From Flexithrix dorotheae DSM 6795 (GTDB lineage: Bacteria; Bacteroidota; Bacteroidia; Cytophagales; Flammeovirgaceae): a stretch of 64,000 nucleotides of DNA. Made by a program: the position numbers and the translations under genes. The stretch is from NCBI RefSeq assembly GCF_000379765.1, contig NZ_KB903454.1:372001-436000 (forward strand), given 5' to 3'. The notes beneath the pieces were generated by a model that made no database searches, was not told the DNA's origin, and worked only from the letters and a program-made list of their open reading frames with translations. Positions 59,508 to 63,538 of this stretch are shown in pieces. The stretch's first letter is position 1. Each line of letters starts with the position of its first letter.

Positions 59508-59523
59508 TTTAGACTTGTCTAAA
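59508..59523. promoter_or_regulatory. Palindromic operator of the metal-transport operon
   Basis: TTTAGACTTGTCTAAA: perfect 7-bp arms (TTTAGAC/GTCTAAA) with a 2-bp centre. It overlaps the TTG of the candidate -33 element at 59515-59517. Form and place fit a DtxR/MntR-type metalloregulator box, and the operon encodes such a domain in its third gene. Confidence 0.7.
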
Positions 59524-59545
59524 CTTGATTTTAAATCTATATTTG
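59515..59545 (+). promoter_or_regulatory. Promoter of the metal-transport operon
   Basis: TTG (59515-59517), 20 bp, then TATATTTG (59538-59545). This agrees well with the Bacteroidota -33/-7 arrangement (TTG-type and TAnnTTTG). The start codon of the binding-protein gene is at 59627, giving a leader of about 75 nt. It is the best promoter candidate in the window. Confidence 0.65.
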
Positions 59546-59626
59546 TTTCATTAAACAAAAATCAAAAATTTGGGTATTGATTTTATTTACTATTCAATGA
59601 ATAACCTAATATTTTTTAAACCTGCT

Positions 59627-60544
59627 ATGAAAATTCAGTTTTACTTCACTATACTTTTTTCGCTGATTTTATTTAGTTGCGGAAAAGAAGAAAATAAAAA
59701 AGAAAACGGAAAACTTTACATTGTGGCCACTACCGGAATGATAAAAGATGCTGTAGCCAACATAACCGGAGATTTGGCCACGGTAGAGGGTTTGATGGGA
59801 CCCGGAGTTGATCCGCATTTATACAAACCCACTCCCGGAGATTTATCGAAATTAAGACAAGCCGATGTGGTCTTTTACAATGGATTACATCTGGAAGGGA
59901 AAATGGTAGAAGTATTCGAAAAATATGCCCGGGAAAAACCTGTATTTCCGGTAAGCGAGGGGATTTCCAAAGATAAATTAAAAGCTCCGGATGATGGTGC
60001 TCAGGCCTATGATCCGCATATTTGGTTTGATGTAAGTCTTTGGAAAGCAGCTGTTAACCAAATTTCTAAAAAACTCATCGAGTTTGATCCTGATCATAAA
60101 TCGGTTTACCAGAAAAATACAGAAACGTATTTAGCCAAACTTTCTGAACTGGATAATTGGGTGAAAACAGAGATTCAAAAAATTCCTGAAAATGGCCGAG
60201 TGTTGATTACTGCACACGATGCATTTGGTTATTTTGGACTGGCATATGATATACAGGTAAAAGGCCTTCAGGGTATATCCACTGTTTCTGAATTTGGCCT
60301 TAGAGATGTAACTGAACTGGTAAACTTCATTTCTTCCAGGAAAATTAAAGCAGTATTTGTAGAGACTTCCGTTCCTTCCAAATCGCTTGAAAAGGTGGTA
60401 GCAGGTTGTAAAGAAAATGGACATGAAGTTAAAATTGGAGGAACTTTATTTTCCGATGCCATGGGCGAAGAAGGTACTGAAGAAGGCACCTATATTGGCA
60501 TGGTAAAATCCAATGTCAATGCCATTGTTTCTTCATTGAAATAA
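59627..60544 (+). CDS. Metal ABC transporter substrate-binding lipoprotein (YtgA/TroA-like)
   Basis: Periplasmic lipoprotein that captures Mn2+, Zn2+ or Fe2+. I start it at ATG 59627: the frame extends upstream to TTG 59570, but only the inner start gives a lipoprotein signal (FYFTILFSLILFSCGK, lipobox Cys). Length is then 305 residues. Cluster A-I landmarks are GPGVDPHLYKPTPGDL, YNGLHLEG, DPHIWFDVSLW and TAHDAFGYFGLAY, which give three His ligands. FSDAMGEEGTEEGTY holds the likely fourth (Asp). The His-rich loop of ZnuA is absent, which favours Mn/Fe over Zn, but that is an inference. First gene of a four-gene operon. Confidence 0.93.
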   Translation: MKIQFYFTILFSLILFSCGKEENKKENGKLYIVATTGMIKDAVANITGDLATVEGLMGPGVDPHLYKPTPGDLSKLRQADVVFYNGLHLEGKMVEVFEKYAREKPVFPVSEGISKDKLKAPDDGAQAYDPHIWFDVSLWKAAVNQISKKLIEFDPDHKSVYQKNTETYLAKLSELDNWVKTEIQKIPENGRVLITAHDAFGYFGLAYDIQVKGLQGISTVSEFGLRDVTELVNFISSRKIKAVFVETSVPSKSLEKVVAGCKENGHEVKIGGTLFSDAMGEEGTEEGTYIGMVKSNVNAIVSSLK

Positions 60545-60579
60545 AACCTAAATTAGAGGAATTTCTTAATACAGTAATT

Positions 60580-61371
60580 ATGATTTCACATGTTGATAAT
60601 CCCGTACTGGAACTACATAATCTGACGGTAACTTACGAAAACAAACCGGCAGTATGGAATGTAGATTATACCATTCCCGAAGGTAATCTGATTGGAATTG
60701 TAGGGCCGAATGGATCGGGGAAAACCACCATGCTAAAAGCCGTAATGGGACTGGAAAAGCCAAGTAGTGGTTATGTGAAAGTATTTGGGAATGATTTAGA
60801 TAAAGTAAGGGATAAAGTAGCCTATGTACCGCAAAGAGGTTCTGTTGACTGGGACTTTCCTACAAGCGTATATGATGCTGTTTTAATGGGCAGATATACC
60901 AAACAAAACCTGTTTAAAAGAACAAGTAAAAGAGATCGGGAAATCACCAATGATTGTATAAAAAAGGTTCAATTGGAGAATTTTTCAAAACGCCAAATCT
61001 CCCAACTCTCCGGAGGCCAACAGCAAAGAGTTTTTATTGCCAGAGCCCTGGCTCAGGAAGCAGAACTTTATTTACTGGATGAACCCTTTGCCGGAGTGGA
61101 TGCGGCCACAGAAAATGCCATTATTTCCTTACTCCAGGAAATGAAAGCCGAGGGAAAAACGATTATGGTCGTGCATCATGATTTACAAACAGCGCCCAAA
61201 TATTTCGACTGGCTGGTGATGATGAATACCAGGTTAATTGCTTCCGGGAAAATCTCAGATGTATTCAATCAGGAGTTGCTTAATCAAACTTACGGAGGCC
61301 GTCTGAATATCCTGACGCAGGTTGGGGAATTATTAAAACAAACCTCCCACCCCATCCGGGAGAAAAAGTAA
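60580..61371 (+). CDS. Metal ABC transporter ATP-binding protein (YtgB/TroB-like)
   Basis: Cytoplasmic ATPase of 263 residues powering metal uptake. Walker A is GPNGSGKTTML, the Q-loop region is VPQRGSVDWDFP (typical of Mn/Zn ABC ATPases), signature LSGGQQQRVFIARALAQ, Walker B YLLDEPFAGVD, and H-loop VVHHDL. It begins 35 bp after the binding-protein gene and ends 6 bp before the permease-repressor gene. Confidence 0.95.
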   Translation: MISHVDNPVLELHNLTVTYENKPAVWNVDYTIPEGNLIGIVGPNGSGKTTMLKAVMGLEKPSSGYVKVFGNDLDKVRDKVAYVPQRGSVDWDFPTSVYDAVLMGRYTKQNLFKRTSKRDREITNDCIKKVQLENFSKRQISQLSGGQQQRVFIARALAQEAELYLLDEPFAGVDAATENAIISLLQEMKAEGKTIMVVHHDLQTAPKYFDWLVMMNTRLIASGKISDVFNQELLNQTYGGRLNILTQVGELLKQTSHPIREKK

Positions 61372-61377
61372 ATTACC

Positions 61378-62673
61378 ATGGAATTGATAATTGATTTTTT
61401 CTTTAAAGATCCTGTGGTCAGATGGGTACTCATGGCTGTCATTTTAATGTGTGCCAGTGCAGCCATTGTGGGCTGTTTTACATTTCTGAGAAAAAGAGCC
61501 CTTGTGGGAGATGCAATTTCCCATGCCATTTTGCCCGGCATCTGCCTTGCCTTTATCATTGCGCAAACTAAAAATCCTATGGTTTTAATGTTAGGCGCTT
61601 TTGGAAGTGGATGGCTGGGGCTAATCACAATTGATTTCATCACCAATCGGACTAAACTCAAAACTGATGCGGCACTGGGCCTTGTATTATCTGTCTTTTA
61701 TGGTTTTGGCATTTTACTATTAACTACTATACAAAACTCTGGAAATGCTTCGCAATCCGGTCTGGATAAATTTCTGTTTGGCAATGCAGCTGCTATGATG
61801 CAATCCGATGCAATCACCTTTGGCTTATTTTCCTTAGTCCTGATCATTTTAATATTCATCCTTTTCAATCCACTCAAACTCGTCACATTTGACAGGAATT
61901 TTGCGATTTCAAGGGGCATTCCGGTAAAAAGATTGGAATTACTTTTATCTGTATTAACTGTTTTTGCCATTGCCATTGGCATTCAGGCCGTGGGTGTAGT
62001 ATTAATGGCTGCACTACTCATTACACCTGCTTCAGCCGCTCGTTTTTGGACACACGATTTGAAATGGATGATTTTCCTGGCTGCAGCATTTGCGGTAATT
62101 TCAGGAATTATGGGCACCTTCATCTCTTATACTTTGCCCAAAATGCCTACAGGTCCCTGGATAGTGACAATTCTCTCTACCATAGCTATAATCTCAATCA
62201 TTTTTGGATTTAAAAAAGGCATACTTTCCAAGGTTAGGCTAAGGAGATTAAATAAGAAAAAGATCCTAAGGGAAAATATTCTAAAATGTCTTTATCATTT
62301 AGGTGAAAAAGCGGGCAATTTCGACAAATTCTGGTCAACCTGGGAAATATTGGAGAAAAGGGAAATGAATAAAGCACAACTAAAATCCGGGTTAAAACAG
62401 TTAGAATCAAGGAATTTAGTAATTCTGAAAGGAAATGCAGCAAAATTTTCTGAATTGGGAAAGGAAGAAGGAAGAAGGGTAACTAAAATTCACAGACTTT
62501 GGGAAATATACTTGACCAAGTATATGAAAATGGCGCCCGATCATGTTCACAATGATGCAGAAGCTATGGAGCATCTCATTACTCCGGAAATTGAAAAAGA
62601 CCTGGAAGTTCACCTGAAATTTCCTTTAATTGATCCCCATGATTCCCCTGTTCCCTATAAAGATTTGAAGTAA
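61378..62673 (+). CDS. Metal ABC permease fused to a DtxR-type repressor domain (YtgCR-like)
   Basis: Inner-membrane ABC-3 permease (about residues 1-275, eight or nine spans; RKRALVGDAISHAILPGI is the family coupling motif) followed by a cytoplasmic DtxR/MntR-type region (about 286-431). The winged-helix part (ILRENILKCLYHLGEKAGNF to KIHRLWEIYLTKYM) and the metal and dimerisation part (HVHNDAEAMEHLI, DPHDSPVP) are both present. In Chlamydia trachomatis the same fusion (YtgCR) is cleaved to release the repressor YtgR. Here it should sense the imported metal and repress the operon through the palindrome at 59508-59523, probably after cleavage; this is inferred. One base separates it from the next gene. 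Confidence 0.93.
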   Translation: MELIIDFFFKDPVVRWVLMAVILMCASAAIVGCFTFLRKRALVGDAISHAILPGICLAFIIAQTKNPMVLMLGAFGSGWLGLITIDFITNRTKLKTDAALGLVLSVFYGFGILLLTTIQNSGNASQSGLDKFLFGNAAAMMQSDAITFGLFSLVLIILIFILFNPLKLVTFDRNFAISRGIPVKRLELLLSVLTVFAIAIGIQAVGVVLMAALLITPASAARFWTHDLKWMIFLAAAFAVISGIMGTFISYTLPKMPTGPWIVTILSTIAIISIIFGFKKGILSKVRLRRLNKKKILRENILKCLYHLGEKAGNFDKFWSTWEILEKREMNKAQLKSGLKQLESRNLVILKGNAAKFSELGKEEGRRVTKIHRLWEIYLTKYMKMAPDHVHNDAEAMEHLITPEIEKDLEVHLKFPLIDPHDSPVPYKDLK

Positions 62674-62674
62674 T

Positions 62675-63538
62675 ATGGATGCATTTTGGATAATATTAAC
62701 CGGTTCTTTAGTGGCCACATGTTGTGCCTTATTGGGCTGTTTCCTATTGCTAAGGAAAATGACCATGGTGGGGGATGCCATTTCCCACGCTGTGCTTCCC
62801 GGTATTGTACTGGCCTATCTGGTTACTGCTTCAAGAGCATCATTCCCCATGTTGGTTGGAGCTGCAATTTTTGGGGTGATCACCACTATTCTAATTGAGC
62901 TATTGAGCAAAAAAGGAAAATTACAGGAAGATGCCGCTATTGGAGTTTCTTTCACCTGGTTGTTTTCCATTGGAGTAATTCTCATTTCTGTGTTTGCAGG
63001 ACAGGTAGATCTCGATCAAGATTGCGTGCTATATGGTGAAATTGCCTATGTTCCACTGGATACACTTTATATTGGAGGCAATAATCTCGGCCCTGAACCA
63101 GTATGGTTGCTAGCCATTAACCTCCTGATTATCATTGTGTTTATCTTAATTGGTTACAAAGGTTTAGTAGTTACCAGTTTCGATCCCATATTAGCTACTT
63201 CACTGGGAATTTCTACTGTGTTCTGGCATTACTCTCTCATGAGTCTGGTTTCCCTCACTACTGTTTTTTCCTTCGAATCTGTTGGAGCAATTATGGTTGT
63301 GGCTTTTTTAATCGGCCCTCCTGCTGTAGCCTATCTACTCACAGAAGACCTTAAAACCATGCTCTTTTTATCAGTAATTTTCGGCATTGGGGCAGCATTG
63401 GGAGGGTATTTTCTTGCAGTGGCTATTGATGCTTCTATTGCAGGTGCTATGGCTTCGGTTATAGGTGTTGAGTTTATTTTTGCTTTTATTTTCAACCCAA
63501 GAAATGGAATTTTGAAAAGAAAGAAGCTGGCGGCTTAA
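62675..63538 (+). CDS. Metal ABC transporter permease (YtgD-like)
   Basis: Second ABC-3 permease of 287 residues with about eight spans. RKMTMVGDAISHAVLPGIVLAY is the coupling motif. It lacks any cytoplasmic regulatory domain, unlike its paralogue upstream, and should form a heterodimeric membrane unit with it. Its stop codon overlaps the convergent glycosyltransferase gene by 4 bp, leaving no room for a separate terminator. Confidence 0.94.
   Translation: MDAFWIILTGSLVATCCALLGCFLLLRKMTMVGDAISHAVLPGIVLAYLVTASRASFPMLVGAAIFGVITTILIELLSKKGKLQEDAAIGVSFTWLFSIGVILISVFAGQVDLDQDCVLYGEIAYVPLDTLYIGGNNLGPEPVWLLAINLLIIIVFILIGYKGLVVTSFDPILATSLGISTVFWHYSLMSLVSLTTVFSFESVGAIMVVAFLIGPPAVAYLLTEDLKTMLFLSVIFGIGAALGGYFLAVAIDASIAGAMASVIGVEFIFAFIFNPRNGILKRKKLAA

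Follow-up and report, generated by a model that had tools for sequence, protein, structure and literature searches.

The closest described counterpart of the system analyzed here is chlamydial YtgABCD, in which the first permease, YtgCR, carries a C-terminal repressor domain. The accessible text of PMC5599777 reports that Chlamydia trachomatis YtgR is cleaved (bands of 49 and 28 kDa) and binds DNA in an Fe-dependent manner; PMC7755916, in its accessible part, also reports both cleavage and DNA binding, and that of PMC6504234 reports DNA binding. The first of these, a review, further relays from Thompson et al. 2012 that orthologous permease-repressor fusions occur in 11 phyla. Here we analyze a 64,000-nt stretch of the Flexithrix dorotheae DSM 6795 genome (contig NZ_KB903454.1, positions 372,001 to 436,000; hereafter the window), in which a TroABCD-type metal ATP-binding cassette (ABC) importer operon of four co-directional genes at the window's end occupies positions 59508-63538. 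Its first permease is likewise fused to a DtxR-fold domain.

The fusion gene (61378..62673, forward strand) encodes a 431-aa TroC-type permease with a DtxR-fold domain, as judged from Pfam, alignment, an AlphaFold2 model and a permease tree. The permease part matches ABC-3 (E = 5.8e-65, residues 12-276), and the C-terminal part matches Fe_dep_repr_C, PF02742 (E = 2.2e-18, residues 359-426), far above chance. These matches confirm the original prediction of a metal operon with a permease-repressor fusion at 59508-63538. Its further claim of a gene order like that of chlamydial ytgABCD is borne out by a chlamydial locus that encodes a YtgA identical to PDB 6nsi, and whose fusion must on that account be C. 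trachomatis YtgCR. This fusion contains the WWW motif, described for YtgCR in the accessible part of PMC7755916. Beyond gene order, the two systems share a first, TroC-type permease with a C-terminal DtxR-fold domain and the metal-site ligands, and in both a PF01325 match and the canonical recognition motif are missing. The fusion is neither new nor specific to the window genome; its architecture is known (PMC5599777). A missed stop or an assembly artefact was rejected as its source, the same fusion being present in 23 relatives.

Our analysis suggests that a repressor-derived domain, with its metal site kept and its DNA-reading helix apparently lost, controls the importer rather than genes. 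On balance we lean, if only slightly, towards a fused domain that senses cytosolic metal and inhibits the importer, with transcription left to a separate repressor.

An AlphaFold2 model of the fused permease was built on 24 fusions (mean predicted local distance difference test score, pLDDT, 87.3; predicted template modelling score, pTM, 0.74). In this model the fused domain is an intact DtxR fold: residues 293-430, winged helix included, superimpose on the Mn repressor DR2539 (8pw0_A; Z 17.8, root-mean-square deviation, rmsd, 2.3, 133 residues aligned). The likeness to the standalone repressors DR2539, SloR, IdeR, DtxR and MntR extends over the whole fold (Z 13.7 to 17.8), including the metal/dimerisation domain, and the E-x-x-E-H site is shared with the Mn sensors ScaR and DR2539; whole-length sequence matches are weak. 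Unlike these repressors, the fused domain has no recognition motif, no PF01325 match and no C-terminal FeoA/SH3 part, and it is held covalently in the membrane. The permease part resembles the Mn importer permease PsaC (7kyp_F; Z 35.7, rmsd 3.0, 284 aligned), the closest solved permease and a 290-residue chain that differs in matching only the permease part and the exit helix (model residues 1-298). Among matches at E ≤ 0.01, no solved chain spans both the permease and DtxR parts, and a fold search in viral structures returned nothing at E ≤ 0.001.

The two parts appear to be rigidly joined in the model. A helix at residues 258-276, by position the last membrane span, is followed by a single continuous helix, residues 282-312 (62221..62313, forward strand; DSSP assignment, pLDDT about 87-91), that leaves the membrane and continues into DtxR alpha1. 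The junction is thus helical and ordered, and a disordered or flexible linker between membrane part and domain is absent from the model.

We followed the domain through three sets of genomes. Among 58 related genomes (order level or closer), the fusion query matched somewhere in 54; the window's class of fusion, termed F1, occurs in 24 (window included) and a second class in three. A sample of 128 genomes from the phylum has PF02742 in 92 and a fusion-length frame (434-516 aa) in 12, all of which also have a standalone-length PF02742 frame. Three of these 12 were already in the relatives set, and the other nine comprise six F1 fusions, two of the second class and one unread; the domain comparison took in three of the five second-class fusions. 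The chlamydial survey drew 151 genomes from the phylum to which a Parachlamydiaceae record belongs. PF02742 matched in 136 of the 151, and the best match lies in an open frame of 393-493 aa in all but one of them, where the frame has 313 aa; the match is single in 123 (fusion-length in 122), and an additional short match occurs in 13. Chlamydial fusions were read in 63 cases. Because of their small genomes, their operon content and the WWW motif, we presume 17 of the 63 to be from Chlamydiaceae; the motif is present in 13 of these 17 and in none of the other 46. A YtgA search of the genome contigs found no relative.

Across these sets, the metal site is retained. The window's metal-binding and dimerisation domain (residues 358-426; 62449..62655, forward strand), delimited by PF02742, invariant columns and a ligand table, contains H372, E376, H391, E395, E398, H399 and DPH at 419-421, as a residue check showed. 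The corresponding positions, which we take to be the DtxR ligands H79, E83, H98, C102, E105 and H106, are kept together with DPH in 30/30 F1 fusions (one E to D), 63/63 chlamydial fusions, 3/3 second-class fusions, 38/38 standalone proteins and nine of nine domains of the FeoA-linked form described below. Retention of these ligands supports the proposal that the importer contains its own metal sensor, with the predicted sites presumably binding metal.

The DNA-binding part behaves differently. The original prediction had both DtxR parts recognisable; this holds for the metal/dimerisation part by profile search (PF02742, residues 359-426), and for the winged helix by fold and the weak whole-length matches, but not by PF01325, which gave no match at E ≤ 1. 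The winged helix (residues 321-357; 62338..62448, forward strand) has a recognition helix, EKREMNKAQLKSGLKQLE, unlike that of DtxR, judging from the lack of PF01325 and of the canonical motif and from low identity between genera. At E ≤ 0.1, PF01325 matched 0/24 F1 fusions, 0/29 chlamydial fusions and 23/23 standalones (18 + 5), PF02742 matching every one of these proteins. Similarly, the recognition-helix motif is found in none of 105 tethered domains (30 F1, 9 FeoA-linked, 3 second-class, 46 + 17 chlamydial) and in 52 of 55 standalones. These divide into 38/38 in a first set, a count that is partly by construction since the motif was drawn from those 38, and 14/17 further proteins (7/10, 6/6 and 1/1). 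The first set combines 18 standalones from relatives' loci with 20 of the 30 best-scoring PF02742 loci, a choice that favours canonical proteins; the ten loci left out of it were tested afterwards, and account for the 7/10.

Conservation of the recognition helix separates the groups further. At 60-75% metal-domain identity, recognition-helix identity is 62% among standalones (387 pairs) and 58% among presumed Chlamydiaceae (107), compared with 29% in F1 (246), 25% in the FeoA-linked form (30) and 24% in other chlamydial fusions (670); pairs with more than 90% identity in the metal part had been removed. The pairs are not independent of one another, and identity is depressed where divergent helices have to be aligned. 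When the complete winged-helix segment was instead aligned separately for each pair, identity came to 46% for standalones, 51% for presumed Chlamydiaceae, 30% for F1, 39% for the FeoA-linked form, 34% for non-Chlamydiaceae chlamydial fusions and about 21% for shuffled sequences. These alignments show a clear loss of constraint on the winged helix in F1 and, by the second measure, a lesser one in the other tethered groups. Fused and standalone proteins were also compared in pairs of genomes, two of twelve pairs being skipped (no standalone found; pattern failed). Within one genus (L298 and L299), 7/58 positions of the fused winged-helix segment are identical vs 49/64 in the fused metal part, the standalone values being 36/53 and 52/64. 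In six chlamydial fusions (L194, L195, L189, L181, L222, L179), the stretch from alpha1 to the metal part is 35-42 residues vs a median of 58, hardly sufficient for a winged helix.

A separate protein appears to serve transcription. A second DtxR protein is encoded in 28/30 F1 genomes, the window's included (its match in genome G022 is weak, 47.9 bits). Of these 28 proteins 22 were read, and every one has an intact recognition motif; the window genome's own separate repressor likewise has an intact recognition helix. In 14 of the 30 (8 + 6), the fusion operon's binding-protein gene is immediately preceded by a standalone dtxR gene. Fused domain and standalone repressor both keep the dimerisation/metal motif HRLWE..VHE.AE..EH..DPH.

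Upstream of the window's operon lies a perfect palindrome, TTTAGACTTGTCTAAA (59508..59523, unstranded), its first base coinciding with the start of the originally predicted element. It matches at 14/14 positions, with 0/300 shuffles as good, and is the likely operator of the standalone MntR/DtxR-type repressor. Fourteen bases past it, TATATTTG (59538..59545, forward strand) fits the TAnnTTTG sequence that we take to be the Bacteroidota -7 element; such a sequence follows the operator by no more than 45 bases in 11/22 upstream regions, compared with 149/1275 background windows. Operator matches of at least 11/14 occur in 22 of 25 upstream regions, the same regions from which the pattern was derived. 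Sixteen of the 25 reach at least 12/14 with at most 1/300 shuffles as good, and six at exactly 11/14 are equalled by 8 to 22 of 300 shuffles; the remaining three (L035, L052, L055) have no match of 11/14. The site precedes operons headed by the standalone gene, a second-class fusion operon (L061, 12/14) and two operons with an unfused first permease (L056, 12/14; L062, 13/14), and in L044 a 12/14 match lies directly ahead of the fusion gene itself.

Genome-wide, only an exact match is informative, because at up to two mismatches the operator pattern gives 28 forward matches vs 154 for its reversed control. The exact palindrome has just two copies in the 9.54 Mb window genome. The other copy (G000:C14:8025-8040; L306, L321) lies 105 bases before the start of a gene for a TonB-dependent receptor, likely a second member of the metal-uptake regulon; the receptor's CarboxypepD_reg domain and the TAnnTTTG promoter elements are consistent with Bacteroidota.

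Where a second DtxR protein is missing, in G006 and G025, the binding-protein gene has no operator (best 8/14), nor does it in G022, where the match to that protein is weak (9/14). This correlation is not decisive, since four of five genomes that have a standalone DtxR and dispersed genes also lack the operator there (G037, G052, G043 and G044, 8 to 10/14; the fifth, G018, has 12/14). The standalone repressor nevertheless best explains the operator, because the site is conserved across these settings, as is the standalone recognition helix, while the fused helices differ. That the standalone repressor reads this predicted site is a stronger claim than that of a brake on the importer.

A second tethered form supports a role at transporters. 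It consists of a membrane helix, a DtxR-like domain and two FeoA domains, and is encoded beside feoB. In 19/128 sampled genomes, a PF02742 match below 100 bits falls in an open frame of 328-369 aa, and in 17/19 a standalone match is no more than about 800 bases away; this count rests on frame length and score, and two more frames of such length that score like standalones were not counted. Nine of these proteins were read, and all have a hydrophobic N-terminal stretch, a basic stretch like that at the permease exit and a FeoA-like C-terminal half, with the metal ligands kept and the canonical motif absent. Pfam found two FeoA stretches in each of two scanned proteins, one of which also gave a sub-threshold PF01325 match (17.3 bits vs 26). 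The form lies between a standalone dtxR and feoB in L291 (5241-6254, reverse strand), and also in L261, L262, L263, L264, L265, L267, L276, L295 and L302; in six neighbourhoods (L291-L295 and L302), Pfam identifies the gene immediately downstream as FeoB_N. In its model (mean pLDDT 87.8), which has the DtxR fold (5zr6, E = 8e-15), a helix at residues 27-55 runs from the first helix (3-21) into alpha1. FeoB is a very different kind of metal importer, and finding a tethered DtxR-like domain next to its gene speaks for a role at transporters.

The domain has probably joined permeases at least twice, because fusions sit on both sides of a tree of 80 permease parts. TroC-type (first) and TroD-type (second) permeases are separated with full support in the Shimodaira-Hasegawa-like approximate likelihood ratio test (SH-aLRT), among sequences that do not include unfused TroC permeases from other phyla. 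The TroC side holds F1, the chlamydial fusions and one class of double fusions; on the TroD side are the second-class fusions and the TroD-type partners in double fusions. Four unfused permeases (L056, L057, L058, L062; two of them in 1.1-1.2 Mb genomes) fall among fused TroC permeases, on branches of 80-90, and likely reflect domain loss. In a tree of the domain itself, tethered and standalone forms are split by one branch (SH-aLRT 93, not starred; 83 columns, long branches flagged).

In three records both permeases carry the domain (L258, 310-1746 and 1867-3012; L256, 1426-2946 and 1-1419; L200, 1432-2808 and 155-1621), and two sensors could therefore dimerise inside one importer. By eye, the H98/C102 positions read D in the first permease of L258 and L256 (VDRDAD, VDRGAD), the second keeping H and E, and the two domains may form a complementary pair.

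How might such a domain act? The operon would import Mn2+, perhaps Fe2+ or Zn2+, with transcription under the genome's separate MntR/DtxR-type repressor at TTTAGACnnGTCTAAA and the DtxR-fold domain on the first permease sensing metal in the cytoplasm and acting directly on the importer. Cytosolic metal would fill the domain's sites and move alpha1. Since alpha1 and the helix that emerges from the last membrane span form one unbroken helix, the movement would reach the permease or the ATPases and slow import, a form of trans-inhibition comparable to that by the C2 domain of MetNI and the regulatory domain of ModC. The likeness to MetNI and ModBC lies in this proposed mode, in which a cytosolic substrate bound to an added domain slows import; their domains differ in being on the ATPase and of other folds, whereas here the domain is on the permease. 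Added regulatory domains on transporters, trans-inhibited importers among them, are reviewed in PMC10710835, and the word DtxR is absent from its accessible part. The fold, the retained ligands, the missing recognition motif, the separate repressor and the conserved operator were computed here; metal binding, the metal involved, the direction of the effect and the absence of DNA binding are what we infer.

Several observations weigh against such a brake. The lack of a motif is no proof of lost DNA binding, because C. trachomatis YtgR, a reported DNA binder, lacks it as well; three of the 55 standalones (L261_1, L287_5, L288_1) also lack it by the pattern used. In the closest pair (window and genome G001), the fused segment is identical at 53/55 positions and the metal part at 63/64, the standalone values being 50/52 and 63/64, and residues 313-360 show 22 synonymous and 3 non-synonymous differences; synonymous divergence is saturated in three of five regions of this pair, so no rate ratio is given for the winged helix. 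Neutral decay was accordingly rejected for this pair, the segment being nearly as conserved as the metal part, and the fused winged helix must be under selection for something in each lineage. The fused segment is also positively charged (mean +6.4 in F1 vs +4.2 in standalones), and 5/24 F1 members weakly match the generic winged-helix family HTH_45. The domain can be absent, as in the four unfused first permeases, and two of the 30 F1 genomes (G006, G025) have no second DtxR protein. Finally, because the window's second permease has no domain, a sensor dimer within its importer is impossible unless two fused permeases pair. Since the missing motif alone is insufficient, the argument against DNA reading rests jointly on the motif, the variability of the helix, the separate repressor and the operator.

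The alternative closest to the chlamydial precedent is that a protease frees the domain as a metal-dependent DNA-binding protein that represses its own operon. The gene order and architecture of C. trachomatis ytgABCD, the cleavage and DNA binding reported for YtgR in the accessible parts of PMC5599777 and PMC7755916, the winged-helix fold kept in the model and YtgR's own lack of the canonical motif all favour it. Yet the window's recognition helix is not DtxR-like and is poorly conserved between genera though the operator is conserved, whereas the corresponding stretch is conserved within presumed Chlamydiaceae (58% at matched distance). The two systems also differ in that most chlamydial genomes have a single PF02742 match, while the window's side combines a variable helix with a separate repressor, present in 28/30 genomes, and a conserved operator. 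That operator is found before unfused permeases too (L056, L062), and the model has no flexible linker, so that YtgR-style release, which the original prediction had entertained, strikes us as unlikely here. A repressor of changed DNA specificity that acts uncleaved from the membrane would account for the positive charge of the winged-helix segment, the constraint in the closest pair and the weak winged-helix matches; however, across genera the F1 helix keeps only a loose pattern of its own, with basic residues and a buried face, and the one type of operator found fits the standalone repressor. We consider this reading highly improbable.

In two further explanations the domain would not read DNA. 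Using the shared dimerisation surface, it could bind the standalone repressor at the membrane and hold it off DNA, much as PtsG holds Mlc, thereby linking the state of the importer to transcription. Both proteins have the dimerisation/metal motif and co-occur in 28/30 fusion genomes, but the 123/136 chlamydial PF02742 genomes with one match (122 fusion-length) have no second DtxR to sequester, nor do two of the 30 F1 genomes, and sequestration is to our mind quite unlikely. Alternatively, the domain could be a chaperone or buffer that picks up metal at the cytoplasmic exit and passes it along, without regulating import. We give this little credence: the kept ligands and the location right after the last membrane helix would suit it, yet the retained alpha1 helix and whole DtxR fold are more than a simple metal trap needs.

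The metal brake can be extended, more tentatively and at somewhat below even probability, to a general scheme in which a DtxR-derived domain that has lost DNA recognition is a plug-on, tethered importer sensor, recruited repeatedly and gating post-translationally, with the DNA-binding YtgR of Chlamydiaceae as the exception. In this scheme TroC-type ABC permeases would have gained the domain in two phyla or more, Chlamydiota and the window's among them; TroD-side permeases would have acquired it separately, and FeoB operons in combination with one membrane helix and two FeoA domains. Among the matches listed in the open-access literature, none concerns regulatory, non-DNA-binding fused DtxR domains or the FeoA-linked form.

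The rest of the operon is that of a metal importer: Pfam and fold matches identify a TroA-like binding protein, an ATPase and two ABC-3 permeases. The binding protein, a TroA-like metal-binding lipoprotein (59627..60544, forward strand; PF01297, ZnuA-type, E = 4.6e-83), has an open frame (59570-60544) that opens at TTG, and the ATG at 59627 (MKIQFYF..., lipoprotein-like) is the more likely start. As in TroABCD and PsaBCA, with which the importer also shares the PsaC permease fold (7kyp), the binding protein is nearest TroA among solved structures (1toa, E = 2.9e-80); the stretches dphly, dphiwfd, tahdafgyf and lfsdamg align with it, and we take these to contain the TroA metal ligands. The ATPase (60580..61371, forward strand; ABC_tran, 1.6e-32) matches a manganese/iron ABC ATPase model at E = 2.4e-67 and 227 bits, below that model's cut-off of 393. 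The second permease (62675..63538, forward strand; ABC-3 PF00950, E = 8.3e-48) is TroD-type by the permease tree and has no sensor domain. Separate production of the fused domain from an internal start was rejected: the first ATG, GTG or TTG codons past the last membrane helix are 325 (TTG) and 330 (ATG), and because both lie within the winged helix the whole domain cannot start there. Elsewhere, in L297 (4773-6959) and L304 (5568-7709), the fusion and the second permease are separated by a gene exceeding 700 aa. In L061 (8052-9830, reverse strand), a topologically odd 592-aa frame joins a periplasmic binding protein (7-294) to an ATPase (345-586), possibly through a missed stop or as a real fusion.

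If the fused domain does act as a brake, one kind of post-translational metal control, built from a repressor that has stopped reading DNA, would be common to metal ABC importers and FeoB and would provide rapid regulation beneath the transcriptional level. Applying the YtgCR cleavage model in other phyla, as PMC5599777, in its accessible text, suggests from the fusions in 11 phyla, would then also be open to doubt.

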